Source: Armatimonadota bacterium (lineage in GTDB: Bacteria > Armatimonadota > DTGP01 > JAKQQT01). Taken from it: a stretch of DNA of 64,000 nucleotides. The position numbers and the translations under genes are program-made. Below are positions 1 to 63,751 of this stretch, piece after piece; the first letter of the stretch is position 1, and every line of letters begins with the position of its first letter. The notes beneath the pieces are model-generated. The model did no database searches. It had not been told where the DNA came from and was given only the letters and a program-made list of their open reading frames with translations. The DNA is taken from contig DASXVS010000017.1 of assembly GCA_036504095.1 (NCBI GenBank), forward strand, positions 1-64,000, given 5' to 3'.

Positions 1-2604
1 GCGCAGGTCTTCAAACGCGAAGATGGCCCCACCATAGGCGATAAGCTTTTCCACGGTGGTTCCGTCAGTGTATGTGACCTTAACGCGCGCCACGACCGTG
101 TCCGCCTCGGTGACGTTCGTGGTCGCCCACAGGAAGCGCAATTCGCCGGCCTTGCGGTCGCCAAGTGGGATATCGATCGATTTCGGCCATTCTCCCGCCG
201 GATTGAGCGCGCCCGCCATCCAGAGCGCCGGGCCAACGCTGAACGTCGTGCCCGCAAGGGTTTCGAGTTTCGAGTGACTGGCTCCGAGTTCGGGGATGGG
301 GCTCGGAACTCGAAACTCGGAACTCGGAACCGGCAGTTCGACCGTGAAGCCCTTGTGAGTGGACATGTCCACCGGCTTGCGGTCCCAGAACGTGCGGAAC
401 GCCTCATCCGGGTCATAGCCAAGCGCGTCCAGGCCGGGCTGGCCGCCGTTCCACGCGTACTCGCCAGCTAGAAGGTAGGCCACGAACTGGATGAAACTCG
501 CGCCGCCAACGAGGTCGGTGCTCATCGAATAGCCCGCCCAGGTCGTCTGGCAGAGGCCCATCGCCTTCTCATTGCCCAGCACACGCGCGAAATTCTGGAT
601 ATTGCCGCGCTCATACCACGGGCATCCCACGACCTGGAAGCCTTCCTTCTGCCAGATCCCCACGCTCGGGAAATCGGGTTTCTGGGCATCGTAGTGCCAG
701 TCGGCGATGATGATGTCCTTCGGCAAGCCGGACCGGCGGGCCTTTGCGGTGGGCACGTCCGGCGCGTTGCCGGCGTCGTTGGCTTCGTCCGGCCAGTGCA
801 GGAACTCGTCGCCCCACATCATCGTGGCGATGCCCTTCGCCTTCAGCCAGTCGTGGACCTTGTTGACGTCCTCGAGGATCAGGTCATTCACCGGCTTGCT
901 GACGCCCTTCGGCGGGAAGAGGCCGCCGGTGGTGATCTCGTCTCGGCCGATGTGGAAGGTCTTCGGCTTGAAGATGTCGATCGCTTCCTGCATCACCGGG
1001 AACAGGATGTCCGTGTAGACGCGTCCCTTGGTGGGGTCGTACTGGTAGCGCTTCACCGGATCCGTGGCCACATCCAGGTTCTGGCCGTTCACGAACATCC
1101 AGTCGGCGTGACCGAGGCCGTTGACCAGAGGGATCGGCTCCATGAAGTGCGCCCGCGCATAGTCCACGGTCTTCTTCATATCCGCCAACGGTGTGGAGCG
1201 ACCCTTGTCCCAGATCTTGGGCTGCGACTTCCACTGCGAGAAGTCCACCTGGTACAGCATCTGGTTCAACTTCGTCGCGGCGCAGATTTTGGAGATCATC
1301 GCCTCGTGGAACGGGACCGACTGCGGCCCGCCGAACCAGTGAACGCCCCGGAAAGGCATGGAGGGCCAGTCGCGTATCTTCACGGCCTTGATGTACACCC
1401 CGTCCTGGTCCACCCGGATGAGCTGCTTCAGCGTCTGGATGCCATAATAGACGCCGCGCGGGTCGGAGCCGACAACAGACACGCCGTATTCCCCCGAGAG
1501 GAGCCTATAGGCCTCAGGATTGGACGGTGGTGTTAGGCTGGCCTCGTACTTGTCGCCAACCGGCCAAACATAGATATCCACGCTGTTACGCAGTTCGTCT
1601 ATCGGACCGTTTAGGTCACCGATGGGCAGGCTAAGGCCCCACACGTCCTCGAGTTCGGCCTGGAGTTCCTTCGCGCCCTGCTTGGCCTCAGGCGAGGCCG
1701 ACTTCATCACGTAGATACGGCTGAACTTGTCGAGACGCGCCTTGCCCTCGCCAACCTTCATCTCCTTCGGGTGCGGGATCACCGGCAGTTCGGCGCGGTA
1801 CGGAACGCGGGCGGTGTCGATGTCCTTCACCTTTGCGCCTGTGGCCATGCCTTCCACGGATTTGTTCGCCACGGGATTGCTGAACTTCCACGTGACAGTC
1901 ACGCCCTGTTGTCCCGGCTTGACAGGGATCTGCGGTACACCGATGCCGAACCAGAAGACCGGGTTAGCGCGCGCCCAGTCCTGCTGGCCGCCGCGCGCGT
2001 CGAAGAGCTTCATCGCCGCCGTGTCCTTGTCGGTGCCTTCCACGGCGATCTCGATGCGGCCGATGCGGCTCTCAAACGTGATCTGCTTCACCAGCGGGCA
2101 GAGCTGGCTTGCGTTCTGATCGTCGGTCGTGGCGTACATCGGCACCGTGCCGGATTTGGGGCCGTCGATCGTTTCCGCCTTGAACGGCACCCCCGATATG
2201 AGGTTGGCGTTGATGTAGCCGTTGGTGTACTCCACCTCGGCCGGCGCGCCCTTGCTGCCCCAGGTGACCGCGATCTTGACCGTATCGTCCGGCCGGACTT
2301 CCACGCGGTACTTGGCCCATGCGCCGTCGGTCTCGTACGCGACCGTTCCGACTTTGGCGTCGCCCTCGGTAGCGGTCGTGAACTTCGGTATTTCCTGATC
2401 CTGGTTCAGGATCGGACCCGTCCACCCAGGCTTGACCACGTAGAGATGCGATTCGCGGGTGACCGGGATACCGTTGTAGAAAAGCCGCAGGTGCCGTCCC
2501 TGCGAGAACACGGCCCGCACATGCCCGGCGGAAAGGTCCAGGTTCTCGGCCCGCGTCATCGGCAGCCCCAACACGAAGAGAGCGAAAACTATCATTCGAA
2601 TCAT
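1..2604 (-). CDS. Secreted GH20-like glycosidase, paralogue A (3' end beyond window)
   Basis: The frame is open from an ATG at 2604 to the window edge, about 868 codons, and by comparison with its two neighbours roughly 75 C-terminal residues are missing. A hydrophobic signal peptide is followed by a beta-rich N-terminal domain that shares the KPGWTG motif with both paralogues. A GH20b-type domain and a TIM-barrel-like region follow. The motif HIGRDE near residue 551 carries the Asp-Glu pair used for substrate-assisted hydrolysis in GH20 beta-hexosaminidases. A C-terminal beta domain follows residue 785. Residues about 757-781 are encoded by an inserted heptad repeat element that keeps the frame. 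Exported hydrolysis of HexNAc-containing glycans is inferred from family only; the exact substrate is unknown. Confidence 0.85.
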   Translation of the reverse strand, partial: MIRMIVFALFVLGLPMTRAENLDLSAGHVRAVFSQGRHLRLFYNGIPVTRESHLYVVKPGWTGPILNQDQEIPKFTTATEGDAKVGTVAYETDGAWAKYRVEVRPDDTVKIAVTWGSKGAPAEVEYTNGYINANLISGVPFKAETIDGPKSGTVPMYATTDDQNASQLCPLVKQITFESRIGRIEIAVEGTDKDTAAMKLFDARGGQQDWARANPVFWFGIGVPQIPVKPGQQGVTVTWKFSNPVANKSVEGMATGAKVKDIDTARVPYRAELPVIPHPKEMKVGEGKARLDKFSRIYVMKSASPEAKQGAKELQAELEDVWGLSLPIGDLNGPIDELRNSVDIYVWPVGDKYEASLTPPSNPEAYRLLSGEYGVSVVGSDPRGVYYGIQTLKQLIRVDQDGVYIKAVKIRDWPSMPFRGVHWFGGPQSVPFHEAMISKICAATKLNQMLYQVDFSQWKSQPKIWDKGRSTPLADMKKTVDYARAHFMEPIPLVNGLGHADWMFVNGQNLDVATDPVKRYQYDPTKGRVYTDILFPVMQEAIDIFKPKTFHIGRDEITTGGLFPPKGVSKPVNDLILEDVNKVHDWLKAKGIATMMWGDEFLHWPDEANDAGNAPDVPTAKARRSGLPKDIIIADWHYDAQKPDFPSVGIWQKEGFQVVGCPWYERGNIQNFARVLGNEKAMGLCQTTWAGYSMSTDLVGGASFIQFVAYLLAGEYAWNGGQPGLDALGYDPDEAFRTFWDRKPVDMSTHKGFTVELPVPSSEFRVPSPIPELGASHSKLETLAGTTFSVGPALWMAGALNPAGEWPKSIDIPLGDRKAGELRFLWATTNVTEADTVVARVKVTYTDGTTVEKLIAYGGAIFAFEDLR
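260..331. repeat. Two-armed heptad element inside GH20 paralogue A
   Basis: The left arm is a run of GTTTCGA-like 7-nt units and the right arm a run of CTCGGAA-like units, its approximate reverse complement, around a short spacer. It lies in frame in the linker between the catalytic region and the C-terminal domain. The same position is occupied in paralogues B and C. Confidence 0.8.
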
Positions 2605-8915: not shown

Positions 8916-10031
8916 ATGTTCACGAAAGCCAGTCGCTTTGTCCCGATCTTCGGCGCCCTTCTCATGGTGATGTCCATCGCCGTCCCCGCGCGCGCGGAAT
9001 TCTCGAAGGATGAGATCAAGATGGGCGAGGAAGCGGCCAAGGAGGTCGAGAAGGAGTCCAAACTCTGCAAGGACGAGGCTCTCACCAAACGCGTCAGCGA
9101 TATCGGCCAGTCCCTCGTCAAATCCCTCAACAGCCCCAAGGATGTCTACGTCTTCAAGGTACTGGATGAGAAAGACGTGAATGCCTTCGCGCTTCCCGGC
9201 GGCTTCGTCTATGTCTACAAGGGCCTGATCGACTCAGCGGAGTCCGATGACGAACTCGCCGGCGTGATGGCCCACGAAATCACCCACGCCGACCATCATC
9301 ACGCGAAGAAGATCATGAAGAAGTCCCAGCCATGGGACCTCGCGACGATGGCCGTTCTGCTTGCGGGGATCTTCTCGGGGAAGGATATCACCGCCCCCGC
9401 GCAGGTGATCGGCGTTCTCCAGACCAGCAAAATCAACGGCTATACGATCGACCTCGAGAAGGATGCGGACGCCGGCGGCATGAACTTGATGCTAAAGTCC
9501 AAGTACAACGCCGTGGGAATGCTGACCTTCATGGAACGCCTCGCGCGGACGGAACAGCATTCCGGCTCATCCGCCGTGGACCTCGGAATCTTCCGCACCC
9601 ACCCGTGGAGCGCGGACAGGGCCATCGCGCTGCGAAACGCGCTCGAAAAGGCCGGAGTGGATATCAACCGGCGGGCGGTCATGAAGTCATTGCGCGTAAC
9701 GGTGGAGCCCGTGAAGGATGTGGACGCTGCGGCCCTGGTGATGGACAATAAGACAGTGATCACCCTCGCGCCGGATGGCAAAACAGCGGCGCTTGACCGC
9801 GGCAAGGCCGCCGCACAACAACTGAACGACCTGTTGAACAAGGACTTGTCGGCGCGCGAAGTCTATGTCGCGAAAAACGGCACCGACATCGTCGCGCGAA
9901 ACCGCGTGGTCATCAGCGTGAATGACGCGGACGCCCGCCTGGCGAAATCGACGCCCGCCGCTGTGGCCGCGGAAGCGCGGAAAAAGGTTTTCAACGTACT
10001 CCTCAGCGAGTATCTTAGACTGAACACGTAG
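8916..10031 (+). CDS. Secreted M48-family zinc metalloprotease
   Basis: This 371-residue protein starts at the ATG at 8916, chosen for GAGG five bases upstream and an immediate signal peptide ending about ARA. The peptidase domain carries HEITH at residues 120-124, the HExxH zinc site of M48 peptidases, preceded by an ALPGG motif typical of the family. Family members of this size are periplasmic or exported, related to BepA/YcaL/LoiP, and act in envelope protein quality control. The C-terminal 130 residues have no recognised repeat. It stands alone in transcription order, followed by a two-armed repeat. Activity is well supported by motif; the substrate is unknown. Confidence 0.85.
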   Translation: MFTKASRFVPIFGALLMVMSIAVPARAEFSKDEIKMGEEAAKEVEKESKLCKDEALTKRVSDIGQSLVKSLNSPKDVYVFKVLDEKDVNAFALPGGFVYVYKGLIDSAESDDELAGVMAHEITHADHHHAKKIMKKSQPWDLATMAVLLAGIFSGKDITAPAQVIGVLQTSKINGYTIDLEKDADAGGMNLMLKSKYNAVGMLTFMERLARTEQHSGSSAVDLGIFRTHPWSADRAIALRNALEKAGVDINRRAVMKSLRVTVEPVKDVDAAALVMDNKTVITLAPDGKTAALDRGKAAAQQLNDLLNKDLSAREVYVAKNGTDIVARNRVVISVNDADARLAKSTPAAVAAEARKKVFNVLLSEYLRLNT

Positions 10032-10032
10032 T

Positions 10033-10110
10033 CGGCATCCGGCATCCGGCATTCAGCATCCCGGACGGGAAACGAAGCCTGAATGCTGGATGCTGAATCC
10101 TGAATGCTGA
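10033..10110. repeat. Two-armed heptad element upstream of the PKD gene
   Basis: The left arm is GGCATCC/GGCATTC units of 7 nt (10033-10061) and the right arm GCTGAAT/GCTGGAT units (10079-10110), approximate reverse complements. The right arm runs directly into the AAGGAG of the next gene. The 54741-54838 element uses the same unit. Confidence 0.8.
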
Positions 10111-50767: not shown

Positions 50768-50892
50768 GGGCGCCCACGCGCGGCCCCCCGTATGGGCCGC
50801 CCGCCGGACACCCCACCTGTAATCATCCTTGGTCCCAAAGTGGGCGCCCATCCCCGGCGCCCCATCGGGTGTTGTTATCTAGGAGTCGACCC

Positions 50893-51375: not shown

Positions 51376-51409
51376 GCCGGACCTCCGCTGCGAACTGGAG
51401 CAAATACAG

Positions 51410-51793
51410 ATGGCCATGATCAAAGACAAAGAGCAGCTCGCCGAATTGCGGGACAGCCTCAAGGCATCGCTGCAAGAGAAACGCACGGCGGGCGCGCGCG
51501 TGCTCATCGGAATGGGAACGTGCGGAATCGCCGCCGGCGCCCGGGACGTGATGGACGCCGTTCGCGCCGAACTCACCGTGCGCGAAATCCCGGCGGACGT
51601 GGTCTCCGTGGGCTGCATCGGCATCTGCCAGATGGAACCCATTGTGGATATCGAACAGGGCGGCCGCACACGGGTCACTTACCCCAACGTCACCCCGGAG
51701 ATGGTTCCCCGCCTGATTGAAGAGCATTTCGACAAGGGCCGCATCGTCGAGGAGTGGGCGGTCGCCCGCCTCGATTCCAACGGCCTGGCATGA
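51410..51793 (+). CDS. Thioredoxin-like [2Fe-2S] ferredoxin subunit
   Basis: A 127-residue protein in the family that is fused to the N-terminus of HydB in electron-bifurcating hydrogenases, here as a separate gene. It has MGTCGIAAGARDV and VGCIGICQMEP. Only three Cys are visible (38, 69, 73); the usual four-Cys [2Fe-2S] site seems to be missing one ligand, so either a different residue binds or the cluster is absent. It is 34 bp after the NuoE gene. It may act in assembly or electron relay. Confidence 0.8.
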   Translation: MAMIKDKEQLAELRDSLKASLQEKRTAGARVLIGMGTCGIAAGARDVMDAVRAELTVREIPADVVSVGCIGICQMEPIVDIEQGGRTRVTYPNVTPEMVPRLIEEHFDKGRIVEEWAVARLDSNGLA

Positions 51794-51868
51794 CACACAG
51801 CTTGAGATTTGCAACTTGCATTTTTCGGTTTGCAATTCTCCGGACCCCTTCGGAGAGGACACAACGTG

Positions 51869-54739
51869 ATGGATATCGAAATCGCCACTGGCACGACACG
51901 GCCGCCAAACGAGGAGCCGGAAGGGTTGGAGTCGCTTCCGGATTACCGTGAACTCCCGTTCTACGCCAAACAACAGCGCGTTGCCATGCGCAATTGCGGG
52001 ATCATCGATCCCGAGAGCATCGAGGAGTACATCGCCCGCGACGGCTATATGGCGCTGGCGAAAGCCCTGCGAGGCATGAATCCGGAGGCCGTGGTTCAGG
52101 AAGTCACCGAGTCAGGACTTCGCGGCCGGGGTGGCGGCGGGTTCCGCGCCGGCATCAAATGGGGCCTGTGCGCCAAGGCCAAATCCGACGTCAAATATGT
52201 CGTCTGCAATGCGGACGAAGGCGACCCCGGCGCGTTTATGGACCGTTCCATCCTGGAAGGCGATCCCCACGGCGTGATTGAGGGGATGATCCTGTGCGGA
52301 TACGCGATCGGCGCATCCGAGGGATATATCTATTGCCGCGCGGAGTACCCGCTGGCGATCCAGCGCCTCAAGAAGGCGATCCAGCAGGCCACGGAATATG
52401 GCTTCCTGGGCAACAACCTGTTCGGGCGGCCTTTCAGTTTCCGCCTGAGGATCAAGGAAGGCGCCGGCGCCTTCGTCTGCGGCGAGGAAACCGCGCTCAT
52501 CGCCTCCATCGAGGGGCGGCGCGGTGAACCCCGGCCCCGGCCGCCGTTTCCCGCGGTTTCCGGCGTGTGGGGCAAACCCACGAACGTCAACAACGTCAAA
52601 TCTTACGCCAACGTTCCGCGAATCATCCTCAACGGCGCCAAATGGTTCAGGGGGATCGGCACCGAGGGCAGCCCCGGCACCGCGATCTTCGCACTTACCG
52701 GCAAGGTCAAGAATACCGGCCTCCTGGAAGTCCCTATGGGCATCACCCTCGGCGAGATCATCTTCGATATCGGCGGCGGGATCCCCAACGGCAAGGCCTT
52801 CAAGGCGGTACAGACGGGTGGACCGCTCGGCGGTTGTCTGCCGACGCGGCACCTCAACGTGCAAGTAGACTTCGACTCGCTGCGTTCCGCTGGCGCCGTC
52901 ATGGGCTCCGGCGGAATGATCGTGATCGATGAAGACACCTGTATGGTGGAGTTCAGCAAGTTCTTCCTCGAGTTCGCCACCGCGGAATCCTGCGGCAAGT
53001 GCGTTCCGTGCCGTGTCGGGGGCCAGCGAATGCTGGAGGTCCTGACGCGTATTTCGGACGGACGGGGCGAGCTGGAAGATATCGAGACGCTGAAGAACCT
53101 CGCGGCCGGGATGAAGCACGGCGCGCTCTGCGGCCTCGGGCAATTGACCCCCGGCCCGCTGATGTCCGCGCTCCAGTATTTCGAGGAAGAGTTCCGCACC
53201 CACATCCTCGAAAAGCGTTGTCCGGCCGGTGTCTGCAAGATGCTGACACGAGCCAAATGCGTCAACGCGTGCCCCGCCGAAGTGGACGTTCCCGCTTTTG
53301 TCGCGCTCATAGGCCAGGGCCGGTACGCCGAGGCGCTGGATGTCCATCGCGAGCACAACCCGTTCGCCGCGATCTGCGGCCGCGTCTGCCCCGCTTTCTG
53401 CGAGGCGAAATGCCGTCGCGCGGACATCGGCGAACCCCTCGCTATCCGTCACGTGAAGCGCTTCATGGCGGACCACGAGATATCACAGCCGTGGGCGCCC
53501 GCGCGGATGGACGCGCCCCGTTCGCAGAAGATCGCCGTTGTCGGCGCCGGCCCGGCCGGGCTCACCGCCGCACTCCGCCTCTGCCAACTCGGCTATCCGG
53601 TCACCGTTTTCGAGAAGCTGCCGGTGGCCGGCGGTATGATGGCGGTCGGGATCCCCGAGTATCGCCTGCCTCGCAACATCCTCACCGCCGAGATCGAAAA
53701 CATCCGCCGCGCCGGGGCCGACATTCAGACGGGGAAGGAACTGGGCCGCGATTTCACGGTGGACAGCCTCCTGGATAAGGATGGCTTCAGCGCCGTGGTC
53801 CTCGCCATCGGCGCCCACAAGAGCCGCCGAATCGGAATCCCCGGCGAGGAACTGGAAGGCGTGCTCCACGGCACGGACTTCCTGCGCGAGGCCAATCTCG
53901 GCAATCCGCCGCCCGTGGAAGGAAAGCGGGTCGCCATCGTGGGTGGAGGGGCGGTCGCCATCGATGCCGCCCGCATGGCCTGGCGCCTGGGCGCCAGCGA
54001 GATCCATCTCGTCTATCGCCGGGGCCGCGAAGACATGCCCGCCTGGGGCGACGAAGTGCGCGCGGCGGATGTCGAAGGCATCAAGTTCCACTTCCTCACC
54101 AATCCGACCCAGGTCCTGGGCGAGAAGCACGTCACGGGTCTCGAATGCGCCAAACAGAGCCTCGGCGAATTCGACATGAGCGCCCGACGGCGGCCGCAGC
54201 CGATTCCCGGGTCCGAGTTCGTGCTGGACGTTGATCTCGTCATCCCGGCTATCGGCGAAGCGCCGGACCTGGACTGCCTCGATGGCAGCGGCGGCATCAG
54301 CGTGAACCGCGACAGCACCATCACCATCAGCGCCGATCTCGCGACCTCCCGCGAAGGCGTCTTCGCCGCGGGCGACGCCGCGCTGGGACCTGCAACCGTC
54401 GTGATGGCCGTCGCACAGGGCAACAAGGTCGCCGCCGCCGTCGACACGTACCTCCACGGCCACACCGTCATCCAGCCCCGATTCATCAGCGACTACCACG
54501 CCGTTCCGCAGATATTCAACCTGGACGATTACGCTGAAGCGCGCCGGCCGGTGATGCCGGAACTGAGTGTGGCGGAACGCTTCCGGAGCGTCGCTGAAGT
54601 CGAGCTGGGGCTTGATGAGGAGACGGCCCGCGCGGAATGCAGGAGGTGCCTCCGCTGCGATCTGGAATGGATGGCAACTTCCTATCCGATGTCCGAAACC
54701 GACGAAGAGGGCAAGCTCATCGCGGCGATGATGGAATGA
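51869..54739 (+). CDS. NuoF-like diaphorase fused to GltD/NfnB-type NADPH flavoprotein
   Basis: A 956-residue fusion, from the ATG at 51869 with GGAGAGGA upstream. Residues about 50-440 are NuoF/HoxF: NADH/FMN loop RGRGGGGFRAG (about 85-95), then [4Fe-4S] ligands C375, C378, C381 (ESCGKCVPC) and C421 (LCGLGQ). From about 451 the usual HydB-type ferredoxin tail is replaced by a GltD-type segment: C-rich VNACPAEVDV and CGRVCPAFCEAKCRR, FAD site GAGPAG (about 559-564), and a second nucleotide site GGGAVAID (about 690). The end is AECRRCLRCDLE. NADH, NADPH, FAD and FMN could all meet here, pointing to bifurcation or confurcation. Confidence 0.9.
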   Translation: MDIEIATGTTRPPNEEPEGLESLPDYRELPFYAKQQRVAMRNCGIIDPESIEEYIARDGYMALAKALRGMNPEAVVQEVTESGLRGRGGGGFRAGIKWGLCAKAKSDVKYVVCNADEGDPGAFMDRSILEGDPHGVIEGMILCGYAIGASEGYIYCRAEYPLAIQRLKKAIQQATEYGFLGNNLFGRPFSFRLRIKEGAGAFVCGEETALIASIEGRRGEPRPRPPFPAVSGVWGKPTNVNNVKSYANVPRIILNGAKWFRGIGTEGSPGTAIFALTGKVKNTGLLEVPMGITLGEIIFDIGGGIPNGKAFKAVQTGGPLGGCLPTRHLNVQVDFDSLRSAGAVMGSGGMIVIDEDTCMVEFSKFFLEFATAESCGKCVPCRVGGQRMLEVLTRISDGRGELEDIETLKNLAAGMKHGALCGLGQLTPGPLMSALQYFEEEFRTHILEKRCPAGVCKMLTRAKCVNACPAEVDVPAFVALIGQGRYAEALDVHREHNPFAAICGRVCPAFCEAKCRRADIGEPLAIRHVKRFMADHEISQPWAPARMDAPRSQKIAVVGAGPAGLTAALRLCQLGYPVTVFEKLPVAGGMMAVGIPEYRLPRNILTAEIENIRRAGADIQTGKELGRDFTVDSLLDKDGFSAVVLAIGAHKSRRIGIPGEELEGVLHGTDFLREANLGNPPPVEGKRVAIVGGGAVAIDAARMAWRLGASEIHLVYRRGREDMPAWGDEVRAADVEGIKFHFLTNPTQVLGEKHVTGLECAKQSLGEFDMSARRRPQPIPGSEFVLDVDLVIPAIGEAPDLDCLDGSGGISVNRDSTITISADLATSREGVFAAGDAALGPATVVMAVAQGNKVAAAVDTYLHGHTVIQPRFISDYHAVPQIFNLDDYAEARRPVMPELSVAERFRSVAEVELGLDEETARAECRRCLRCDLEWMATSYPMSETDEEGKLIAAMME

Positions 54740-54740
54740 C

Positions 54741-54838
54741 CTGGGCATCCGGCATTCGGCATCCGGCATTCAGACCGAGCCGAACCGGGCTCTCCGCAAC
54801 CTGAATGCCGGATGCTGGATGCTGAATGCTGGAGACTG
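54741..54838. repeat. Two-armed heptad element between the fusion gene and the NuoG-like gene
   Basis: The left arm (54741-54773) has GGCATCC/GGCATTC units and the right arm (54802-54838) has GATGCTG/AATGCTG units, in 7-nt steps. The right arm ends in GGAGA, just before the next ATG at 54842, and so serves as that gene's Shine-Dalgarno. The unit matches the 10033-10110 element. Confidence 0.8.
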
Positions 54839-54841
54839 ACT

Positions 54842-56548
54842 ATGACCGTTCTGAACGTAACGATAAACGGCAAGACCATGGAAGTCGCGGAAGGGACCAC
54901 GATTCTGCAGGCGGCGAATGCTGCCGGGATTGAGATACCCACGCTGTGCCATCACCCCGCGCTGAAGGACATCGGCGCGTGCCGGATGTGCCTCGTGCAG
55001 ATAGAGAACATGGCGGCGCTGCAACCCGCGTGTTCCTACCCCGTGATCGACGGGATCAAGGTGGAAACGCACACGCCGCGGACCCTCGAAATGCGCAAGT
55101 TCGTTCTGGAAATGCTCTTCTCCGAACGGAACCACTACTGCATGTTCTGCGAGATGAGCGGTGACTGCGAGCTGCAGAAACAGGCCTACGCACACGGCCT
55201 CGCCCACTGGACGTACCCCACGCCCAACCCCAAACTGCAGGTGGACGCCTCGCGCACCTACTTCATCATGGATCACAACCGCTGCATCCTCTGCCGGCGG
55301 TGTATCCGCGCCTGTGGCGACGTGGTCGGGAACCATACGCTGGGCATGATGTCCCGCGGGGCCAAAACGATGGTGACTGCCGACATGGACGAACCATTCG
55401 GCGATTCGACCTGCGTCTCGTGTGGTACCTGCCTCCAGGTCTGCCCGACCGGCGCCCTGGTGGACCGCCGAAGCGCTTATGGCGGCCGCAACAAGGACGT
55501 TGACACCGTGAACAGCGCCTGCACGTTCTGCAGCATCGGCTGCCGCGTGAACGTCATCACGCGAAACGGCCGCCCGTTGCGAGTGGAAGGCGATTGGGAC
55601 GGCCACAACCAGGGCGTCCTCTGCCTCGCCGGCCGGTTCCAGCCATTGGAGACCGGAAGGCGCCGCGTGACAACGCCCATGGTGAAGCGGGACGGTGCGT
55701 TGGAGCCCGCCACCTGGGATGAAGCCCTGGCCGCGGTGGCCAAGGGCGTTCAGGCAGCCGTGCCCGGCAAGATCCACGCTTGGGTGACCGCTGCGACGCT
55801 GGATCAGCCTATGGACGCGGTGGTCGAGACCTTCCGTGGCAAATTCGGCGGCGACGTGAAGACGCTGGAAGCTGCGCCGCCGCCCGGGGAGACCCCCAAC
55901 GGCGGAGCGATGAAGGACATCGATACCGCCGACCTGGTGCTGGTGGTCGACGCCGACCCGCTTACAGAACACCGCGTTCTGGGCTACCGCATCAAGCGCG
56001 CAGCCGACAACGGCGCCCGGATTCTGGTCTGCGCGGACGGCGACAACTCGATGGCGGACTTCGCGCATGAGGCTTTCCCGCTGTCGAAACTGGATTGGGC
56101 TCTCGCGTCCGTCACGACCGCGGAGCGCCCGGTGGTGGTCTATCGCGCCGCGATGGACCCGCGCCTGCGCGCAAAACTCGCCGTCATCAAGGCCGTCTGC
56201 ATACCGCTTCACGCCGCCGCCAACGCGGCGCGCGCCATCAGCCTGGGCCTCAACAACGAAGCCGATGGAGATGCCGAAGCCCTCTACATTCTGCTGGAGG
56301 AACAGGCCCTCACCCCCGAACAGCGCGAACAGGCGCACAAAGCCCCCTTCGTCGTGATGCACGCCTGCTACGTGGACGATGTCGACGGGCTGGCCGACGT
56401 TGTGCTGCCGGCCCCGCTCTGGTACGAGCGCGAAGGCACTTTCCACAACATCGAAGGCAAGAGCGAACGTGTTCGTCCCGCGGCGCCGCCTCCGGAGGAC
56501 ATCTGGTCCGAAACGAGCGTGCTGCAGCAACTGTCACTGCGCGTCTGA
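54842..56548 (+). CDS. NuoG/HydA-like iron-sulfur subunit with molybdopterin-type domain
   Basis: A 568-residue protein from the ATG at 54842, chosen because the upstream in-frame codons lie in the repeat arm. It has an N-terminal [2Fe-2S] (C36, C47, C50, C64), a His-Cys3 cluster (H98, C100, C103, C109) and two ferredoxin-type [4Fe-4S] clusters (C148/151/154/158 and C191/194/197/201). A further [4Fe-4S] site of molybdopterin oxidoreductases follows (C227, C230, C234, C261). The rest is a degenerate molybdopterin-type fold without visible cofactor ligands, as in NuoG and HydA. It would carry electrons between NuoEF and HoxYH. Confidence 0.88.
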   Translation: MTVLNVTINGKTMEVAEGTTILQAANAAGIEIPTLCHHPALKDIGACRMCLVQIENMAALQPACSYPVIDGIKVETHTPRTLEMRKFVLEMLFSERNHYCMFCEMSGDCELQKQAYAHGLAHWTYPTPNPKLQVDASRTYFIMDHNRCILCRRCIRACGDVVGNHTLGMMSRGAKTMVTADMDEPFGDSTCVSCGTCLQVCPTGALVDRRSAYGGRNKDVDTVNSACTFCSIGCRVNVITRNGRPLRVEGDWDGHNQGVLCLAGRFQPLETGRRRVTTPMVKRDGALEPATWDEALAAVAKGVQAAVPGKIHAWVTAATLDQPMDAVVETFRGKFGGDVKTLEAAPPPGETPNGGAMKDIDTADLVLVVDADPLTEHRVLGYRIKRAADNGARILVCADGDNSMADFAHEAFPLSKLDWALASVTTAERPVVVYRAAMDPRLRAKLAVIKAVCIPLHAAANAARAISLGLNNEADGDAEALYILLEEQALTPEQREQAHKAPFVVMHACYVDDVDGLADVVLPAPLWYEREGTFHNIEGKSERVRPAAPPPEDIWSETSVLQQLSLRV

Positions 56549-56640
56549 CACGGTAGGTCGGGCCTCCGCGCCCGACACGGTAGAACGGGCGTCTCGCCCG
56601 TTGATTGGGCTGGGCCTCCGCGCCCGACACGGAATGTCCG
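56549..56640. repeat. Cluster of short GC hairpins (third repeat class)
   Basis: Three hairpins built around GGGCCTCCGCGCCC or ACGGGCGTCTCGCCCGT fill the gap between the NuoG-like gene and hoxY. A matching copy is at 20443-20470. Confidence 0.6.
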
Positions 56641-56674
56641 GCGGCGCGCCGGATATCACGAAGGGAACTTGACG

Positions 56675-57214
56675 ATGGCGAAACCGAAAATCGCAACCGA
56701 CTGGATGGGGGATTGTGCGGGCTGCCACATGTCCCTCCTGGATATGGATGAACGCCTCCTCACGGTGCTGGGAAAAGTGGAACTCACATCTTCACCCATC
56801 ACGGACCTCAAGCATCCCCCGGAGGAGGGCGTAGCGGTGGGCGTCCTCAGCGGATCGATCAACAATACGTCCAACGTGTACGTGGCCCGGATGATGCGAA
56901 AGCGCTCGGGGTGCCTCATCGCCATGGGGGATTGCGCCGTCCTGGGCGGAGTGCTCTCCATGCGGAACGCCTTTGACATCAAGGAGGGGCTGCGCCGAGC
57001 GTACATCGACACCGAGAGCACCGTCGACGGGTTCATCCCGCAGTCCGATGAGCTCGCCAAACCCATCCGCAACCGCCCGCTGGACCAGGTGGTGAAGGTG
57101 GACTACCACCTGCCCGGCTGCCCCCCGTCCGCCGACGCCATCTTCCACGTGCTGAATGAGCTCGCGGAAGGCCGGGAGCCGGTGGTAGAAGGGGAAGCGC
57201 TCAAGTACGACTGA
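56675..57214 (+). CDS. hoxY: [NiFe] hydrogenase small subunit HoxY
   Basis: A 179-residue subunit that holds a [4Fe-4S] cluster next to the NiFe site. The ATG at 56675 is preferred over a TTG six bases upstream because AAGGGA is spaced eight bases from it. Cluster ligands are in GDCAGCHMS, the MGDCAVLGG loop and HLPGCPPSAD. No twin-arginine signal is present, so the enzyme is cytosolic, as in group 3 hydrogenases. The following S23-type gene separates hoxY from hoxH, an unusual interruption. Confidence 0.92.
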   Translation: MAKPKIATDWMGDCAGCHMSLLDMDERLLTVLGKVELTSSPITDLKHPPEEGVAVGVLSGSINNTSNVYVARMMRKRSGCLIAMGDCAVLGGVLSMRNAFDIKEGLRRAYIDTESTVDGFIPQSDELAKPIRNRPLDQVVKVDYHLPGCPPSADAIFHVLNELAEGREPVVEGEALKYD

Positions 57215-57666
57215 GGGGTTAGGTGAAGGGCTGAGGGCTGAGGAGAAAAACGATGGCCCATTTCGAGGAACTGATCGCCTGGCAGAAGGCGCGGCAGTTG
57301 GCGGCGTCCGTTTATACCGTTACGCGATCCGCTCCATGGGCGAAAGACTTCGGACTGGCCGGACAGATACAACGAGCGGCGGTGTCCATCATGGCCAACA
57401 TCGCAGAAGGCAATGAGAGGGGGTCGAGCGTTGATTACCATCGGTTCCTCTGCATGGCGAAGGGATCTTGCGCAGAAGACCGGTCTCACCTTTGCATCGC
57501 GTTCGATATAGGTTACCTGAACGAGGATTCATCTCACGAATTGATGAAGGAAGCTGACGAGGTCAGTCGATTGGTTGGAGGACTACGCGCTGCGATAGCG
57601 CGCCGGTTGAGCCAGGAGACCTTAGTGTCACCGCCTCAGCCCTCGGCCCCCAGCCCTCAGCCCTGA
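57212..57666 (+). mobile_element. Heptad-arm cassette carrying an S23 four-helix-bundle gene
   Basis: The left arm (57212-57244) has GGGCTGA units of 7 nt and the right arm (57634-57666) has the complementary CCCTCAG units. The left arm provides GAGGAG for the enclosed gene, and the right arm encodes its Pro/Ser-rich C-terminus and stop. The cassette sits between hoxY and hoxH without breaking either, so it has the form of a small insertion. No transposase is present. Mobility is inference. Confidence 0.6.
57253..57666 (+). CDS. Four-helix-bundle protein, S23/IVS family
   Basis: A 137-residue protein starting at the ATG at 57253. The signature ELIAWQKARQLAASVY and QRAAVSIMANIAEGNER mark the S23 family, first seen in 23S rRNA intervening sequences and related to Avd of diversity-generating retroelements. 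Members form pentameric or oligomeric nucleic-acid-binding bundles. The last 15 residues (PPQPSAPSPQP) come from the right repeat arm. No reverse transcriptase or rRNA is nearby. It interrupts the hydrogenase operon and may be linked to movement of the surrounding repeats. Confidence 0.85.
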   Translation: MAHFEELIAWQKARQLAASVYTVTRSAPWAKDFGLAGQIQRAAVSIMANIAEGNERGSSVDYHRFLCMAKGSCAEDRSHLCIAFDIGYLNEDSSHELMKEADEVSRLVGGLRAAIARRLSQETLVSPPQPSAPSPQP

Positions 57667-57700
57667 CATCCGATCCACCGAGCGAATAAGGACTAGAGGA

Positions 57701-59122
57701 ATGCAGAAGATAACCATTGAACCTGTGACCCGGATTGAGGGGCACGCGAAGATAACCATCCACACCAATGAAAACGGCAAGGTGGAACGGGCTTACCTGC
57801 ACGTAAACGAATGGCGCGGCTTCGAGAAATTCTGCGAGGGCAGGCCCTACTTCGAAATGCCCCAGATTACCCCGCGTATATGCGGTATCTGCCCGGTAAG
57901 CCATCACCTGGCGGCTGCCAAGGCGTGCGACGTCATCATCGGCGCCGTTCCCACACGCCCGGCGTCTCTCCTGCGCGAACTGATGCATATGGGGCAACTC
58001 ATCCAGTCCCATTCGATGCACTTTTTCGAGCTCGCCGGTCCGGACCTGCTGCTAGGATTCGACGCCGCCCCCGCCATCCGCAATGTGGTGGGCATCGCGC
58101 AGGCCAACCCGGACCTGGCGGTGAAGGCGATCCGGCTGCGCGCGTTCGGGCAGGAGATCATCCGGGCGCTGTCCGGGCGTCGCATTCATCCGACCTACGC
58201 GGTTCCCGGCGGGGTGAACAACGCGATCACCGTTGAACAGCGCGACTCCATTCTTGCGCAATGCGACGAGATGTTGGAGATCATGAAGGTCGGCATCGCG
58301 CTGGCCAAGCGCTGGTACGACTCCCATATGGACCTGGTGGACCGCTTCGCCGTGTTCCAGTCCGGCTACCTCGGCATGGTGGACCCGGATGGCGCGCTTC
58401 AACTTTACGACGGGGATATCAGGCTGATCGACAGCCAGGGCCGGAAGCTCGAGCAGTTCGCCGCCGCTAACTACCTCGACTACATCGGCGAGCACGTGGA
58501 AGACTGGAGCTACCTCAAGTTCCCGTTCTACCGCAGACTTGGGTGGCCCGATGGAACGTATCGTGTCGGGCCTCTCGGTCGCTGCAACGTGGCCGAGAAG
58601 ATCACGACGCCGATCGCCAACGCGGAACTCAAGCACTTCAAATCCATCAATACCGGCCGGCCCGTGGAAGGCACCCTCTGGTACCATTACGCCCGCCTGA
58701 TCGAGGATGTGTACGCGCTGGAACGGGCGAAGGAAATACTCCACGATCCGGACATCCTGTCAAACGATCTCGTTGCGCCCGCCTACAACCCCAAACGGGA
58801 GGGCATCGGCTGCATCGAGGCGCCTCGCGGCACGCTCTTCCACCACTACAAAGTCGATGACGACGGCCTTCTCACCCACGTCAACCTGATCGTCGCCACG
58901 GGCCACAACAACCACGCGATGAGCAAGGCCGTGGAGATGGTCGCCAAGGCGTTTGTGGACGGCAACAAGCCCACCGAGGCGATGCTGAACCAGGTGGAGG
59001 CCGCCGTTCGCGCGCACGACCCGTGCCTGTCCTGCTCGACGCACGCCGCGGGCCAGATGCCCATCGCGATCGAGATACTCGGCCCCGACGGCAGCGTAAT
59101 GCAAACGCTTCGGCGCGGATAG
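57701..59122 (+). CDS. hoxH: [NiFe] hydrogenase large subunit HoxH
   Basis: This 473-residue catalytic subunit carries the Ni-Fe centre. The L1 motif is RICGICPVSHH (C61, C64) and the L2 motif is DPCLSCSTH near the C-terminus. Beyond the final His is a tail of about 25 residues (AAGQMPIAIEI...), which the dedicated protease removes after metal insertion. AAGGA precedes the ATG. Sequence and partners place it in group 3 (bidirectional, NAD(P)-linked). No hyp maturation genes are present in the window. Confidence 0.95.
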   Translation: MQKITIEPVTRIEGHAKITIHTNENGKVERAYLHVNEWRGFEKFCEGRPYFEMPQITPRICGICPVSHHLAAAKACDVIIGAVPTRPASLLRELMHMGQLIQSHSMHFFELAGPDLLLGFDAAPAIRNVVGIAQANPDLAVKAIRLRAFGQEIIRALSGRRIHPTYAVPGGVNNAITVEQRDSILAQCDEMLEIMKVGIALAKRWYDSHMDLVDRFAVFQSGYLGMVDPDGALQLYDGDIRLIDSQGRKLEQFAAANYLDYIGEHVEDWSYLKFPFYRRLGWPDGTYRVGPLGRCNVAEKITTPIANAELKHFKSINTGRPVEGTLWYHYARLIEDVYALERAKEILHDPDILSNDLVAPAYNPKREGIGCIEAPRGTLFHHYKVDDDGLLTHVNLIVATGHNNHAMSKAVEMVAKAFVDGNKPTEAMLNQVEAAVRAHDPCLSCSTHAAGQMPIAIEILGPDGSVMQTLRRG

Positions 59123-59712
59123 TGGAGAAGGATTCAGGGTTCAGGGTTCAGGAGTCAGCGTGGAACGCGATCCTTTCCAAAGAAGGCGAAGTCATCGGCA
59201 CCGGGCTGACTCCCGACTCCTGTCTCCTGTCTCCTGCCCTCATCATCGGCTACGGCAACCCCTACCGCCGCGACGACGGTGTGGCCTGGCACGTCATCAA
59301 CGCCCTCCGCGCACGCCTCGGCCGGCCCCCATTGGCTCTGGATGACACCGGCGAAGACAACCTCGGCCACGCCGTCGACACCGTGATGGCTCACCAACTG
59401 GTCCCCGAAGTCGCGTTGCTGCTCCCCCCATATTCGCGAGTGATCTTCGTGGACGCCCACATCGGCGAGATCCCTGTGCCGCTCCGGGTGATCGAGGTTG
59501 AACCGGGCGGCGAGTTTCAGGCGACCACCCACCACTTCGGCCCGGGCATGCTGCTCTCGCTCGCCCAGGCCCAGTCCGGCACCTCCCCGCGCGGCTGGCT
59601 GGTCTCCATCCGCGGCGACGATTTCAACTACGGCGAAACCCTCACCGAGACGTGCGCAAGCCAGGTGGAACCGGCGGTGGACGAGATTATGCGGCTGGCC
59701 GATACGAACTGA
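59122..59712 (+). CDS. Hydrogenase maturation protease
   Basis: A GTG start at 59122 overlaps the hoxH stop as TAGTG; no in-frame ATG exists, and no good binding site is visible. The 196-residue protein has the family motif GYGNPYRRDDG and later Asp/His that bind nickel. It cuts the C-terminal tail of HoxH. The first 40 residues are unlike other members and are encoded by a two-armed heptad element. The true start may be further in. Its C-terminal 48 residues are repeated at 60589-60738. Confidence 0.85.
   Translation: MEKDSGFRVQESAWNAILSKEGEVIGTGLTPDSCLLSPALIIGYGNPYRRDDGVAWHVINALRARLGRPPLALDDTGEDNLGHAVDTVMAHQLVPEVALLLPPYSRVIFVDAHIGEIPVPLRVIEVEPGGEFQATTHHFGPGMLLSLAQAQSGTSPRGWLVSIRGDDFNYGETLTETCASQVEPAVDEIMRLADTN
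59131..59237. repeat. Two-armed heptad element in the 5' end of the protease gene
   Basis: The left arm (59131-59158) has GGTTCAG units and the right arm (59206-59237) has CTGTCTC/CTGACTC units, all in 7-nt steps. It encodes the non-conserved N-terminus of the maturation protease. Confidence 0.75.
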
Positions 59713-59778
59713 CTGGGCCGCCAATCGGCCGGTAGATCGGGGCATACTCAACACAACGCTTGGTTAAATAGGTCAAAT

Positions 59779-60144
59779 ATGGCATATACTCCAAGGGGGG
59801 AACCTCCCGACAAGAGGATCGTTTGGCTAAAGGGGCAGGTCGCTTCGCCTCCATTTTCGGAGCGTGCGCGTATCTTGGTTGGCCATCTCCTCCGCCTGCT
59901 CCAGCGCGGCCAGACCGTGGCGATGCCGGACTCGCGTCCCATGCCTTCGGTCGAACCCGGCTGCCACGAGTTGCGAGTGCGTGACGTTGACCATTCGTGG
60001 AGACTGATTTATTACGTTGGCCCTGATGAGATCGTCGTATTGGACGTCTGGTCGAAAAAGACGAATCAGACGCCGGACAACGTGATCAGGGAGTGCAGAC
60101 GTCGCTTGCACGCCTACCAGGCAGCCAAACGGAAGGTGGATTGA
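59779..60144 (+). CDS. higB: HigB/RelE-type toxin (phage Gp49-like)
   Basis: A 121-residue basic protein in the RelE/HigB family of mRNA interferases. It has the IVWLKGQV-like first strand, a helical middle and the strand WRLIYYVGPDEIVVLDVWSKKT followed by a basic tail. The gene is followed after one base by an HTH protein, the order toxin then antitoxin typical of HigBA. It lies just after the hydrogenase operon, between two copies of part of the maturation protease gene. Confidence 0.82.
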   Translation: MAYTPRGEPPDKRIVWLKGQVASPPFSERARILVGHLLRLLQRGQTVAMPDSRPMPSVEPGCHELRVRDVDHSWRLIYYVGPDEIVVLDVWSKKTNQTPDNVIRECRRRLHAYQAAKRKVD

Positions 60145-60145
60145 A

Positions 60146-60502
60146 ATGGAGCAGGATACGAGAGCGCGCCTCGAAGCCGCTGGCTGGGTCGTGGGGTATG
60201 CCGATGCGTTTGCCCACCTTACACCGCAAGAGTCGGCTCTTCTGGATCTGAAGGATAACCTCGGACGGGCAGTTCGCGAGCTTCGTAACAGTAGACACAT
60301 CACACAGGCGCAACTTGCCGGCCTGATGGGAACCACTCAGTCTAGGGTCGCCAAATTGGAGGCCGGTGACCCCCGCGTCTCAACTGACTTTGCGATTCGT
60401 GCGATGATCGCCATGGCGACCAACCGGAGGAACTTGGCTAGAGCCGTGGCCGGGTGGCCTTTGGCTTCAAGGCGGCCCGTCCGCGCGAAGACGGCGCCCT
60501 GA
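60146..60502 (+). CDS. higA: HigA-type XRE antitoxin
   Basis: A 118-residue protein with an XRE helix-turn-helix in ITQAQLAGLMGTTQSRVAKLEAG (about 52-74). It would neutralise HigB and repress the operon. The N-terminal 45 residues are helical and probably contact the toxin. The stop is followed by DNA that resembles the protease gene, part of the flanking duplication. Confidence 0.85.
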   Translation: MEQDTRARLEAAGWVVGYADAFAHLTPQESALLDLKDNLGRAVRELRNSRHITQAQLAGLMGTTQSRVAKLEAGDPRVSTDFAIRAMIAMATNRRNLARAVAGWPLASRRPVRAKTAP

Positions 60503-60588
60503 CGACCAATGCAGGGCCGTTCCGAAAACGACTAATCGCAGCGCTCGGAGCTAGCGGACCTGCAAGCGAATCCGGCTCTTACGTCTTC

Positions 60589-60738
60589 GCCTTGGCCCAG
60601 GCCCAATCCGGCGCAACCCCTCGGGGCTGGCTGGTCTCCATCCGCGGCGATGACTTCGACTACTGCAAAACCCTCACCGAGACGTGCGCAAGCCAGGTGG
60701 AACCGGCGGTGGACGAGATTCTGCGGCTGGCCGGCGGG
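60589..60738 (+). pseudogene. Duplicated 3' fragment of the hydrogenase maturation protease gene
   Basis: About 150 bp match 59568-59712 closely, including a stretch of about 50 identical bases around GAGACGTGCGCAAGCC. The frame still reads AQSGATPRGWLVSIRGDD and SQVEPAVDEILRLAG but has no protease motif or proper start. The two copies flank the HigBA module as direct repeats. Confidence 0.8.
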
Positions 60739-60761
60739 ATATGGGCGGGCGGTGAACCGTC

Positions 60762-62440
60762 TTATTCCGCCGGCATGCTCGCAGGAGGCGACTTCGGCGG
60801 ACCTGCCGGTCCCAAGGTGCACGTCAGAGCGTCCCGCCGCCGCTCAGCGCTGCTGCCGAATACGAACTCAAACGTGAATTGCGACGATGTCCCGCCGTCG
60901 GGGGATGCCGGTAGCGCCGTAGCAGTCGCTCTCACCGCCTCGATGGGCGGGGTTGCCGCGCCGACGCCAAAGCAGGCCCCCACTAAGTCGGCGTATGCGG
61001 CGCGGGCGTATCGGGGGATCAGTGCGACGGACAACCCTTGCGCCGTGCCAGTCTGTTTGAAAGACGCGCAAGACAACCGGCTGAGGAACCGGAACGCGGC
61101 TGTCAGCTTGTCATCCGCGATCCACGGGGCTGAGTAGCCGTATTTCGGCAGACAGGTGCTCTGCTCAACGCTCAGATCCGACGCGATCAGCGATTGGGCG
61201 AGATTCAGCTTCCCGCCGCCGCCGGTATCCTTCATCGCCGCGAGTGTGCTGTTGGGCAACTCCTGTAGCATCATGGCGGGCCAGTTGTCCGTGCGGAAGA
61301 CCAGCGCATTCCCATCCCACGCCCATGAGTGCCCATACTTCGCGGCGAGCGATACGATCAGGTCCCTGGCCCGTTGGTCGCGGGCGTTCACCGAACCGTA
61401 ACCGCTTGTGTAGTAGTCGCTGACGATGGGAATACCCGTGGCGTGCGCGACGGCGCGCATGCCTGAGTGAAACCCTATGGCCGACTTGTAGTCCAGTTTG
61501 ACGATTAGGTCCAGGCGGTCTGCCTGTTTTGCGGCAAGTTGCTGTGTCGGTTTGAACGCCTTCAGAGTTTCCGCGAGGGTGGGTCTGTCTAGTTTGGCCG
61601 GCCGGCGAGCGGTCGCCTCCGGTGTCAGGTAGCACACATCGGTGAAATCCGAACCATTATCTCCGCGGATCTTCAGGAAGAACGCATCCGAGGGATACAA
61701 CCTCTCCGCCGCCAACCGGCGTTCCCCTGTGAATTCGATGCTGGTTGCATCGATGAACTGGTCAGCGTTCTCACTCGTTCGCAGGAGGCCGGCAAGCAGG
61801 GCGCTCCGCTCTTCGTTGCCCTTGCCGGAAAGGCCGACTGTAACCGACCGGCCTGCGGCAAGTTGCCCGATCTGGGCGTCCGAGAGCGCGGCGAACGCGT
61901 CATAAAGCGGCTTCCTGGGCTCCCAGTTCATGTAGTTGTGAAACCCCGTCTCTTCGGGCGTGAGGTTGTCGGCGTCCTCATCCGTCATTGCCAACACTTT
62001 GCGCAGGCGCGCGAACGCCGCGGATTTGTGAGCCGAGTCAACTTTGGCCAACACGGTGCGCAATCGCTCCTGTTCGCGGCGGATGCGGGGATCGCGAGTG
62101 AGAACTCGGAGACCGTCCCATCGTCGAGCCGCTTGCTAGACCACTGGTAGCCGAATATGCGCGCGATGTTGCGCTGTAGATCCGCCAAGGGGTATTCCTT
62201 CACGAAGACATCTAGTTTCTCGTCGGCGATGTCATAGCCCACCCGAAACCGGACACCGGTCCTTGCCGTGAGGGACTTGGCGAGCGTGCGGAGGTCAGTC
62301 CCCTGCATGTCGCAGGTAACCCGTGGGCTGCCGGGACCGGTGGCGTTTTCGCCGTGAACGCCCGATGCGGTCATCAATGCGAACGCCATCACACAGATGG
62401 CAATTCGATATGGGATGCCGCTGCGATAGAAAGCGCTCAT
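60762..62440 (-). pseudogene. Secreted STN-like protein gene with frameshift
   Basis: The coding sequence starts at the ATG at 62440 with a signal peptide ending about VHG, then a domain like the STN/secretin N-terminal fold (DLRTLAKSLTARTGVRFRVGYD). Near 62087-62090, a run of four G changes the frame. Adding one base there would join it to RIRREQERLRTVLAK and a second 400-residue part. The full product would be about 560 residues. The C-terminal part has no recognised domain. It may be a true frameshift, a sequencing error or a recent pseudogene. Confidence 0.65.
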
Positions 62441-62577
62441 GTCGCTACCCCGAAATCGAGAGGTCGAAGAAGTTGACGACGTCGACAGATCACCATGGAT
62501 TCTATCAAGTGCGACGGTCGCAGGACCATAGGAAATGCGCGGGGCGGCCGCGCTCCGTCCAATCGTCCGCGATAGGA

Positions 62578-62627
62578 AATCCTCTGCGACACCTCTGCGT
62601 TCCTCCGCGTCCTCTGCGTTGAACCTG
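62578..62627. repeat. Nonamer-type repeat, single arm
   Basis: CCTCTGCGA, CACCTCTGC, CTCCGCGTC and related units in roughly 9-nt steps, in the gap between the frameshifted gene and the DUF1611 gene. Confidence 0.65.
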
Positions 62628-62698
62628 GATCCGTCGGCGGAGCGCCATAATGTGGATGCGGGACGCTCCTGTCCCCTTTCACTGGCGGGAGTCTCTCG

Positions 62699-63751
62699 AT
62701 GGCGGGTCCGTCTTACGTGGTACTGGCCGACGGCGCGTTCGACGTGCATCATGCAAAGACCGCCTGTGTCCTGCTCCGCTACAAACCGGAGCAGATCGCT
62801 GCGGTGATCGACAGCCGATACGCCGGTTCCACGGTATCCGATGTTGTGGGCTTCGGCGGCGATGTGCCTGTGGTCGCCGACCTCCAGGCGGCGTTGCGCT
62901 ACGGTCCGAACCGCCTGCTCATCGGCATCGCACCTGCGGGCGGTAGATTGCCCGATGCGTGGCGAGCCGTCCTGCTCGATGCCCTCAGCGCAGGCCTCGA
63001 CCTTTACAACGGCCTCCACACGTTCCTTCGCGACGACCCCGAACTCGCCGCGGCGGCCCTGAGCGCCGGGCGCGCATTGGTTGATCTGCGCGCCGTCCCC
63101 GATCACTTGTCCACACCCAATGGAAGCAGGGCGACCGTCCGCGTTCCGGTCATCCTCACGGTGGGGACCGACTGCAACGTGGGCAAAATGACCGTCTGCT
63201 GGGAAATCGTGCGTCGCGCCGCTGCGGCGGGACGATCATATGCGATGGCGGCCACCGGCCAGACCGGCCGCCTTCTTACCGGCGAGGGGTTCGCGATCGA
63301 CCGGGTCATCGCCGACTACGTCGCCGGCGCGGCGGAACGCCTGGTGTGCGAGGCGGCGCCGGGGAAGGAACTGGTTCTCGTGGAGGGGCAGGGAAGCTTG
63401 CTGCACCCAATGTACAGCGGTGTGACCCTTGGCCTGCTCCACGGGTCGCTTCCGGATGCAATGATCCTCTGTCACGTCGCCGGACGCCAGACGATGCGAA
63501 GTTGCGACACGCCGATATGCAGTGATCTGGCCCGGGTGCGTTCGATCTACGAGGAGGCCGCCGCCTGGGTGAAACCGGCGCCTGTTATCGGTATCGCCAT
63601 CGCCACCCGGCACCTGTCCGAGGGAGACGCCCGCGCCATCCTGGAGTCTACCTCGCGGGAGACAGGCCTTCCCGTCGAGGACCCCATCCGATTCCCGTCA
63701 GGCGCGCTCTACGACGCCTGCGAGGCCTGGCGGATGTGCACCACCCTATGA
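62699..63751 (+). CDS. DUF1611/DgcN-type protein
   Basis: A 350-residue protein from the ATG at 62699 with GGGAG upstream. The N-terminal Rossmann-like half is followed by a P-loop-like GTDCNVGKMT (about residues 158-167), a family feature, and EGQGSLLHPMYSGVTLGLLHG. Members include DgcN, described as a D-glutamate N-acetyltransferase, and others of unknown function. Its stop overlaps the next gene by four bases, so it is coupled to a DNA methylase-like gene, which is unexpected. Confidence 0.8.
   Translation: MAGPSYVVLADGAFDVHHAKTACVLLRYKPEQIAAVIDSRYAGSTVSDVVGFGGDVPVVADLQAALRYGPNRLLIGIAPAGGRLPDAWRAVLLDALSAGLDLYNGLHTFLRDDPELAAAALSAGRALVDLRAVPDHLSTPNGSRATVRVPVILTVGTDCNVGKMTVCWEIVRRAAAAGRSYAMAATGQTGRLLTGEGFAIDRVIADYVAGAAERLVCEAAPGKELVLVEGQGSLLHPMYSGVTLGLLHGSLPDAMILCHVAGRQTMRSCDTPICSDLARVRSIYEEAAAWVKPAPVIGIAIATRHLSEGDARAILESTSRETGLPVEDPIRFPSGALYDACEAWRMCTTL

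Follow-up and report, generated by a model that had tools for sequence, protein, structure and literature searches.

An S23-family gene within inverted heptad arms in a hydrogenase operon: a probable IVS-type element of a widespread repeat-plus-protein system

The window (64 000 nt of an Armatimonadota contig) contains an intact gene of the S23/IVP family (PF05635) that is enclosed by inverted heptad arms, (GGGCTGA)n and (TCAGCCC)n, at 57212–57666, with hydrogenase genes hoxY and hoxH on either side (Table 1). The hoxY stop codon lies at 57212–57214. The last bases of the left arm, GAGGAG, lie 7 nt upstream of the S23 start codon (ATG at 57253), so that this arm is the source of the Shine-Dalgarno sequence of S23; the right arm encodes the tail of the protein (PPQPSAPSPQP) and its stop codon. 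Both the bracketing of an S23/IVS gene by two arms between hoxY and hoxH and the roles assigned to the left and right arm in the preliminary description are thus borne out by the sequence. The best pair of arm segments is 17 nt long and 94% complementary, and in the predicted minimum free energy (MFE) fold of the RNA the left arm is paired with the right arm; the fold z-score of the whole element is weak (−1.5). TGA occurs on either side of the site and is also part of the heptad. An Rfam search of window positions 50000–64000 gives no match, so the element lies outside an rRNA gene. Elsewhere in the operon, the hoxU–hoxY gap (56540–56632) holds another, non-heptad repeat with a period of ~27 nt (GGGCCTCCGCGCCCGACACGG...), and the hoxF-like ORF (51809–54739, 976 aa) is a fusion of a NuoF-type domain and an NAD(P)-binding domain resembling the glutamate synthase small subunit.

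Table 1. Positions of the S23 element, its host genes and gene-less heptad loci in the window.
Feature	Position	Strand	Remarks
hoxY-like small hydrogenase subunit, upstream host gene	56681..57214	+	PF01058, E=9e-26
5' (left) heptad arm, G-rich strand	57215..57245	+	Core AGGGCTGAGGGCTGAGG at 57227-57243; 7-nt periodic
S23/IVP four-helix-bundle gene, 137 aa	57253..57666	+	Matches to PF05635, TIGR02436 and 2GSC
3' (right) heptad arm, C-rich strand	57634..57666	+	CCTCAGCCCTCGGCCCCCAGCCCTCAGCCCTGA; 7-nt periodic; overlaps the 3' end of S23
hoxH-like [NiFe] hydrogenase large subunit, downstream host gene	57701..59122	+	PF00374, E=1.5e-29; VhuA-type, 449 bits
Gene-less heptad hairpin, GGCATCC/GCATTCA type (heptad family of S23 paralogue L003), gap between hoxF-like and hoxU-like genes	54744..54833		Lag-7 runs
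Gene-less heptad pair, GGTTCAG / CTCCTGT, gap between hoxH and hoxW-like protease gene	59128..59239		Lag-7 runs
Gene-less heptad pair, CATCCGG/CTGAATG type (related to the arms of S23 paralogue L003)	10030..10110		Lag-7 runs
Gene-less CGGAACT-type heptad array	302..331; more copies at 3161-3238 and 6051-6112		Lag-7 runs

To our knowledge, S23/IVS elements have been a curiosity of rRNA since about 1990, with no function assigned to the protein, and we know of no catalytic step or catalytic centre for S23. The focal 137-residue ORF matches PF05635 (E=6.3e-35, 120 bits against a cut-off of 33.8) and TIGR02436 (E=1.2e-32, 112 bits against a cut-off of 24). Among solved structures, 2GSC (XCC0516 of Xanthomonas campestris) comes closest (E=7e-18); five four-helix bundles are described as forming a ring in it (Lin 2006, as cited in PMC4990558 and PMC10053308). 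In profile searches the protein matches only 23S_rRNA_IVP and four-helix-bundle models, and no HUH (Y1) transposase. The proposed relation of S23 to Avd of diversity-generating retroelements holds for the fold family that the two have in common, BPP-1 Avd (4DWL) and 2GSC being homologous according to PMC10053308, but at the sequence level it is weak: the Avd equivalog model NF033474 gives 20.2 bits on the focal protein, below its cut-off of 80. The setting differs too, since the identified neighbours are hydrogenase operon genes only, with no reverse transcriptase among them.

Of 291 genomes examined in the phylum, 53 contain a relative of hoxH, and 30 hoxH loci including our own were read. 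S23 lies directly upstream of hoxH in none of the other 29, which rejects an ancient conserved gene of the hydrogenase operon; empty hoxY–hoxH sites, which the preliminary description proposed to look for, are therefore found, and the order hoxY-S23-hoxH is not conserved. In relatives where hoxY was found the gap to hoxH is mostly 14–48 nt. In the nearest relative, a member of the same family with 75% identity in hoxH, the hoxY–hoxH junction is 64 nt long and free of heptads, and the junction matching 59128–59239 has no heptad pair either. Two other loci (L186 and L187) carry gene-less heptad pairs at the hoxY–hoxH junction, with unit sequences different from the focal one.

Arms of this kind are the rule for S23 genes. 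Loci were collected from 40 genomes of the phylum, GTDB contigs of many phyla, viral contigs, Xanthomonadaceae and plasmids, and each was scored by alignment of the upstream flank to the reverse complement of the downstream flank, with a cut-off of 30. The score is at least 30 in 164 of 219 distinct S23 genes (75%) from many phyla and phages, against 2.0% of mismatched flank pairs, and detectable arms are missing in the remaining quarter; none of 33 control ORFs has arms. Over 442 kb of the focal element's own genome the focal flanks score 29 and those of the eight S23 paralogues 27–56, the other 339 genes reaching at most 27 and none having arms. The mismatched pairs and the other genes reject generic repeat-rich intergenic DNA as the source of the signal. 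S23 genes of relatives thus end in 7-nt inverted arms rather than lacking them, as the preliminary description had anticipated: the arm period is 7 in 132 of the 164 elements and 8 in 20, and the G-rich arm is the 5' one in 151 cases vs 10 (p=2e-33). The elements are ~480 nt long. Elements of Prevotellaceae/Bacteroidales (L085, L097, L098 and L107) have longer or alternating periods, for example GAAGTTAAA/GAAGTTAA (8+9 nt), and are not heptads. By a rough ORF call S23 mostly reads in the same direction as its two neighbours (43 sense vs 13 antisense), which fits life within transcripts. All eight S23 genes of the own genome have inverted, ~7-nt periodic arms, each with another unit. One of these paralogues (L005) lies inside 23S rRNA with arms of the same kind, so the focal element has the classical ‘IVS’ architecture outside rRNA.

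The sequence of the heptad is free to a large degree, with 97 distinct units among 131 clean cases; when aligned in register they share a weak pattern, NNNTCRG (2.72 bits vs a shuffled maximum of 2.42). Nevertheless heptad and S23 protein co-vary. In a set of 99 non-redundant elements from outside the Xanthomonadaceae, the heptads of two S23 proteins with at least 60% identity agree at 5.4 of 7 positions, vs 3.8 of 7 overall (Mantel p=0.0002). The unit AGGACTG is common to elements of this phylum, a deltaproteobacterium and a Thermodesulfovibrionales genome (L013, L058 and L059). Of the eight S23 proteins in the set closest to the focal one, drawn from several phyla, six have a heptad one base away from GGGCTGA. 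Since heptad similarity tracks S23 protein identity across phyla, gene and arms move and evolve jointly.

The focal heptad is also dispersed genome-wide in gene-less form. Its doublet, GGGCTGAGGGCTGA, has 248 copies in the own genome at up to one mismatch, vs 2 for the reversed control; these copies lie on many contigs, at roughly 40 sites or more. A 442-kb portion of this genome has 121 lag-7 periodic runs, vs 3 after shuffling. A comparison of gene-less loci with the eight S23 heptads at 6/7 identity is suggestive but falls short of significance (24/45 observed, 17 expected, 46/500); after this test, the copies of the focal heptad were counted directly. Most other elements of the window bear heptads of other S23 paralogues (for instance CATCCAG, as in L003) or the orphan CGGAACT, and not the focal unit. 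CGGAACT-type arrays are common in the genome (also at C17 91978-92077 and C46 53910-53957 of G000), and no S23 gene with a CGGAACT heptad was found in the assembly. The window further contains an octad array, GGAAATGG x6.6, at 47806–47858; S23 paralogue L006 has GGAAATG-like arms.

The Xanthomonadaceae provide a cleaner test, because most S23-bearing genomes there hold a single S23. Their S23 arms are GGGAATC, GGGACTC, GGGACCG and variants. For each of these three heptads, all five genomes tested whose S23 has the cognate arm contain the doublet in dispersed form (12–531 copies), other S23-bearing genomes mostly have 0 copies of a heptad not their own, and S23-negative genomes have 0–1, except for one (G305). 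The match of genome and heptad is 15/15 (p=5e-5 by label permutation, shared ancestry ignored). Genomes with S23 also tend to have heptads: any of the three is abundant in 21/30 S23-positive vs 1/11 S23-negative genomes (p=0.0009, shared ancestry ignored). The exception has 98 copies of GGGACTCGGGACTC and no S23 match; its carA–carB junction (L356) contains an unrelated 440-nt insertion with an ORF. Heptads of this kind have been described before on their own. They occur genome-wide in Xanthomonas and Nostoc (GGGAATC, GGGGATT; Rehm et al., PMC4692102), where the Xanthomonas repeats form convergent inverted pairs at intergenic sites and GGGAATC is also an S23 arm, and a repeat of the same unit length, TAACTGA, is known from Beggiatoaceae (PMC4679880). 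Both papers treat the repeats alone (G-quadruplex, regulation), and S23 is in neither text. Our literature search, whose coverage mostly excluded subscription journals, found no paper tying S23 to dispersed heptads; a prior description is possible.

Comparison of empty and filled sites shows that gene and arms form one insertion unit. In many Xanthomonadaceae S23 lies between carA and carB, and in others between accB and accC. Empty carA–carB junctions read TGA-C-ATG or TGA-G-ATG. In filled ones the element is inserted a few bases ahead of the carA stop, its 5' arm becomes the carA tail (RDSGLGTRDS...), S23 starts after or overlapping the new carA stop, and the 3' arm is the S23 tail; in the clearest cases S23 ends at the former carA stop. 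No target-site duplication is obvious at these junctions. The L003 paralogue of the own genome and an S23 gene of Ramlibacter (L117) also lie between carA and carB, apparently as independent insertions, since the heptads are unrelated and the S23 identity is 36–49%. With these, L248 and others, carA–carB is a recurrent S23 landing site in at least three unrelated lineages. Together with the co-variation of heptad and protein across phyla, the empty and filled sites give good support to the earlier claim that gene and arms are a unit. Within the Xanthomonadaceae S23 is mostly inherited vertically at fixed sites, and among the loci fetched there are no convincing near-identical S23 copies at separate sites of one genome that would indicate recent movement.

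Dispersed heptads and the arms at S23 loci change in concert. Orthologous carA–carB arms vary by species (GGGACTC, GGGACCC, GGGACTG, GGGATTC or GGGACCG), and a gene-less arm pair at argF'–argG, present in 15/21 S23-positive vs 0/9 S23-negative genomes (p=0.0007, scored by eye, shared ancestry ignored), follows them: its heptad is identical to that of the S23 arms in 9 of the 15 (p=5e-5, shared ancestry ignored). The left arm of this pair lengthens the end of argF', the right arm falls in the first codons of argG, and the loop contains argG's own ribosome site and start. In dnaX of another genome (G340) the two arms lie in frame within the tau linker, and the AAxAAL motif between them looks native and is also present in relatives. 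A derivation of gene-less pairs by deletion from the gene-bearing form is unsupported at argG and dnaX, where the loops look native, and some gene-less pairs are therefore not simple deletion derivatives. Gene-less arms seem to be made pairwise around existing sequence and rewritten over time, and simple hairpin transposition fails to explain them. The suggestion that the other elements are empty forms, related to the gene as REP sequences are to RAYTs, thus stands for the 248 copies of the focal heptad in the own genome and strongly in the Xanthomonadaceae, but not for most elements of the window, which have other heptads, nor where the loops are native.

The focal element is an IVS element by gene, arms and length, yet it lies outside rRNA; it is REP/RAYT-like but lacks the enzyme that defines those systems, and it scores below the cut-off of the Avd model. 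In the 23S rRNA IVSs with an S23p ORF of Leptospira and Coxiella, as here, an S23 gene of ~400 nt lies between terminal inverted repeats (~430–480 nt in total), tandem heptamers (GACAGAT) are reported in the 5' arm of the Coxiella IVS (PMC4990558), and L005 of the own genome lies in 23S rRNA with like arms; the focal element differs in its position between protein genes of an operon. With REP/REPIN-RAYT systems it shares a usually single-copy gene, flanked by a palindromic repeat that is also dispersed without the gene, and S23 is mostly vertical in Xanthomonadaceae. Where those systems have an HUH (Y1) transposase, S23 is a four-helix bundle for which no catalytic centre is known, and its repeats are tandem heptads whose sequence varies freely (97 types) and whose pairs can enclose native DNA.

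Taken as a whole, we consider it probable that the focal feature is an IVS-type element, inserted between hoxY and hoxH as a unit of S23 and inverted tandem-heptad arms, and that it is one member of a repeat-plus-protein system of very wide distribution, each S23 lineage having a heptad of its own. Because most S23 genes have arms and many copies are gene-less, the S23 parasite of rRNA looks like one case of such a system. By analogy its working may be likened to that of REP/RAYT. The S23 protein would bind its own heptads in RNA or single-stranded DNA and so act in the spread of the element, with a host enzyme supplying catalysis; the arms would be copied or inserted elsewhere and re-homogenised, as RAYTs do for REPs, and copying between the two arms (fold-back synthesis) might maintain their complementarity. 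Once transcribed, the arms would pair into a stem cleavable by RNase III, as in rRNA IVSs, and we propose that the operon mRNA tolerates the insertion for this reason. Excision from the hydrogenase mRNA is plausible by this analogy, since the focal RNA is predicted to fold with its arms paired and RNase III cuts the stems of rRNA IVSs (PMC4990558). Several observations count against this explanation: no catalytic enzyme is encoded in the element, a target-site duplication was not seen, the 6/7 comparison in the own genome is not significant, CGGAACT is an orphan, heptads occur in G305 although it has no S23, one S23 gene in four is without detectable arms, some loops are native, and the Coxiella S23 protein is apparently not produced (PMC4990558). 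We regard as unlikely a bolder form, in which S23 is the sequence-specific guide of a new genome-writing system: its heptad would be synthesised or copied at two nearby points, leaving inverted arms around whatever segment lies between, be it the S23 gene itself, a start codon, a terminator or a coding stretch, and constant rewriting would bring the copies in the genome into line with the current heptad, rather as telomere repeats follow a template.

A plain selfish IVS of the rRNA type would need the arms only as an RNase III excision stem, with heptads generated by replication slippage, complementarity kept by palindrome-templated correction, and S23 unrelated to heptads elsewhere. The pairing of the arms in the predicted RNA, the established RNase III cutting of rRNA IVS stems, the strain-variable number of Coxiella heptads (PMC4990558) and the mostly sense orientation of S23 all agree with it; we nevertheless hold it to be quite unlikely, as it leaves unexplained that dispersed heptads have the sequence of the S23 arms, are tied to S23 presence and change in concert. 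The native DNA between the arms at argG and dnaX indicates that arm pairs can form without S23 inside, and this, the S23-free heptads of G305 and the orphan CGGAACT would suit heptads kept by another host factor (another polymerase, or a quirk of recombination or mismatch repair), S23 inserting by homology into existing pairs. Such an origin is decidedly improbable, given that S23-negative genomes are otherwise without these heptads and that similar heptads accompany similar S23 proteins across phyla, which is unexpected if the host makes them. Dispersed palindromes and a mostly single-copy gene with the same flanking repeats also recall a classical REP/RAYT system or an IS-derived MITE whose transposase was overlooked, but the enclosed protein is PF05635 only, with no HUH transposase, the sequence of the repeat unit is unconserved and native DNA can lie between the arms, so that this reading is hardly credible.

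On the preferred explanation, an IVS-type element of a repeat-plus-protein system, the S23 protein is likely the agent, the heptads are likely its substrate and rRNA is one landing site among many, which opens the function of a large protein family to direct testing. Heptameric repeats of Xanthomonas, cyanobacteria and Beggiatoaceae have been described separately and without an agent, and are here joined with S23/IVS; if this is true, the S23 system would explain a common class of bacterial intergenic repeats.

Inverted arms also surround the S23 genes of plasmids from cyanobacteria and Riemerella, which lie outside the 219, in 8/8 cases, one of which (L421) scores 29, just below the cut-off. 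On plasmids S23 with its arms is also seen within CRISPR gene clusters, in the orders cas10-S23-cmr3 (L421, Picosynechococcus) and cas6-S23-cas4 (L422, Anabaena sp. 90).
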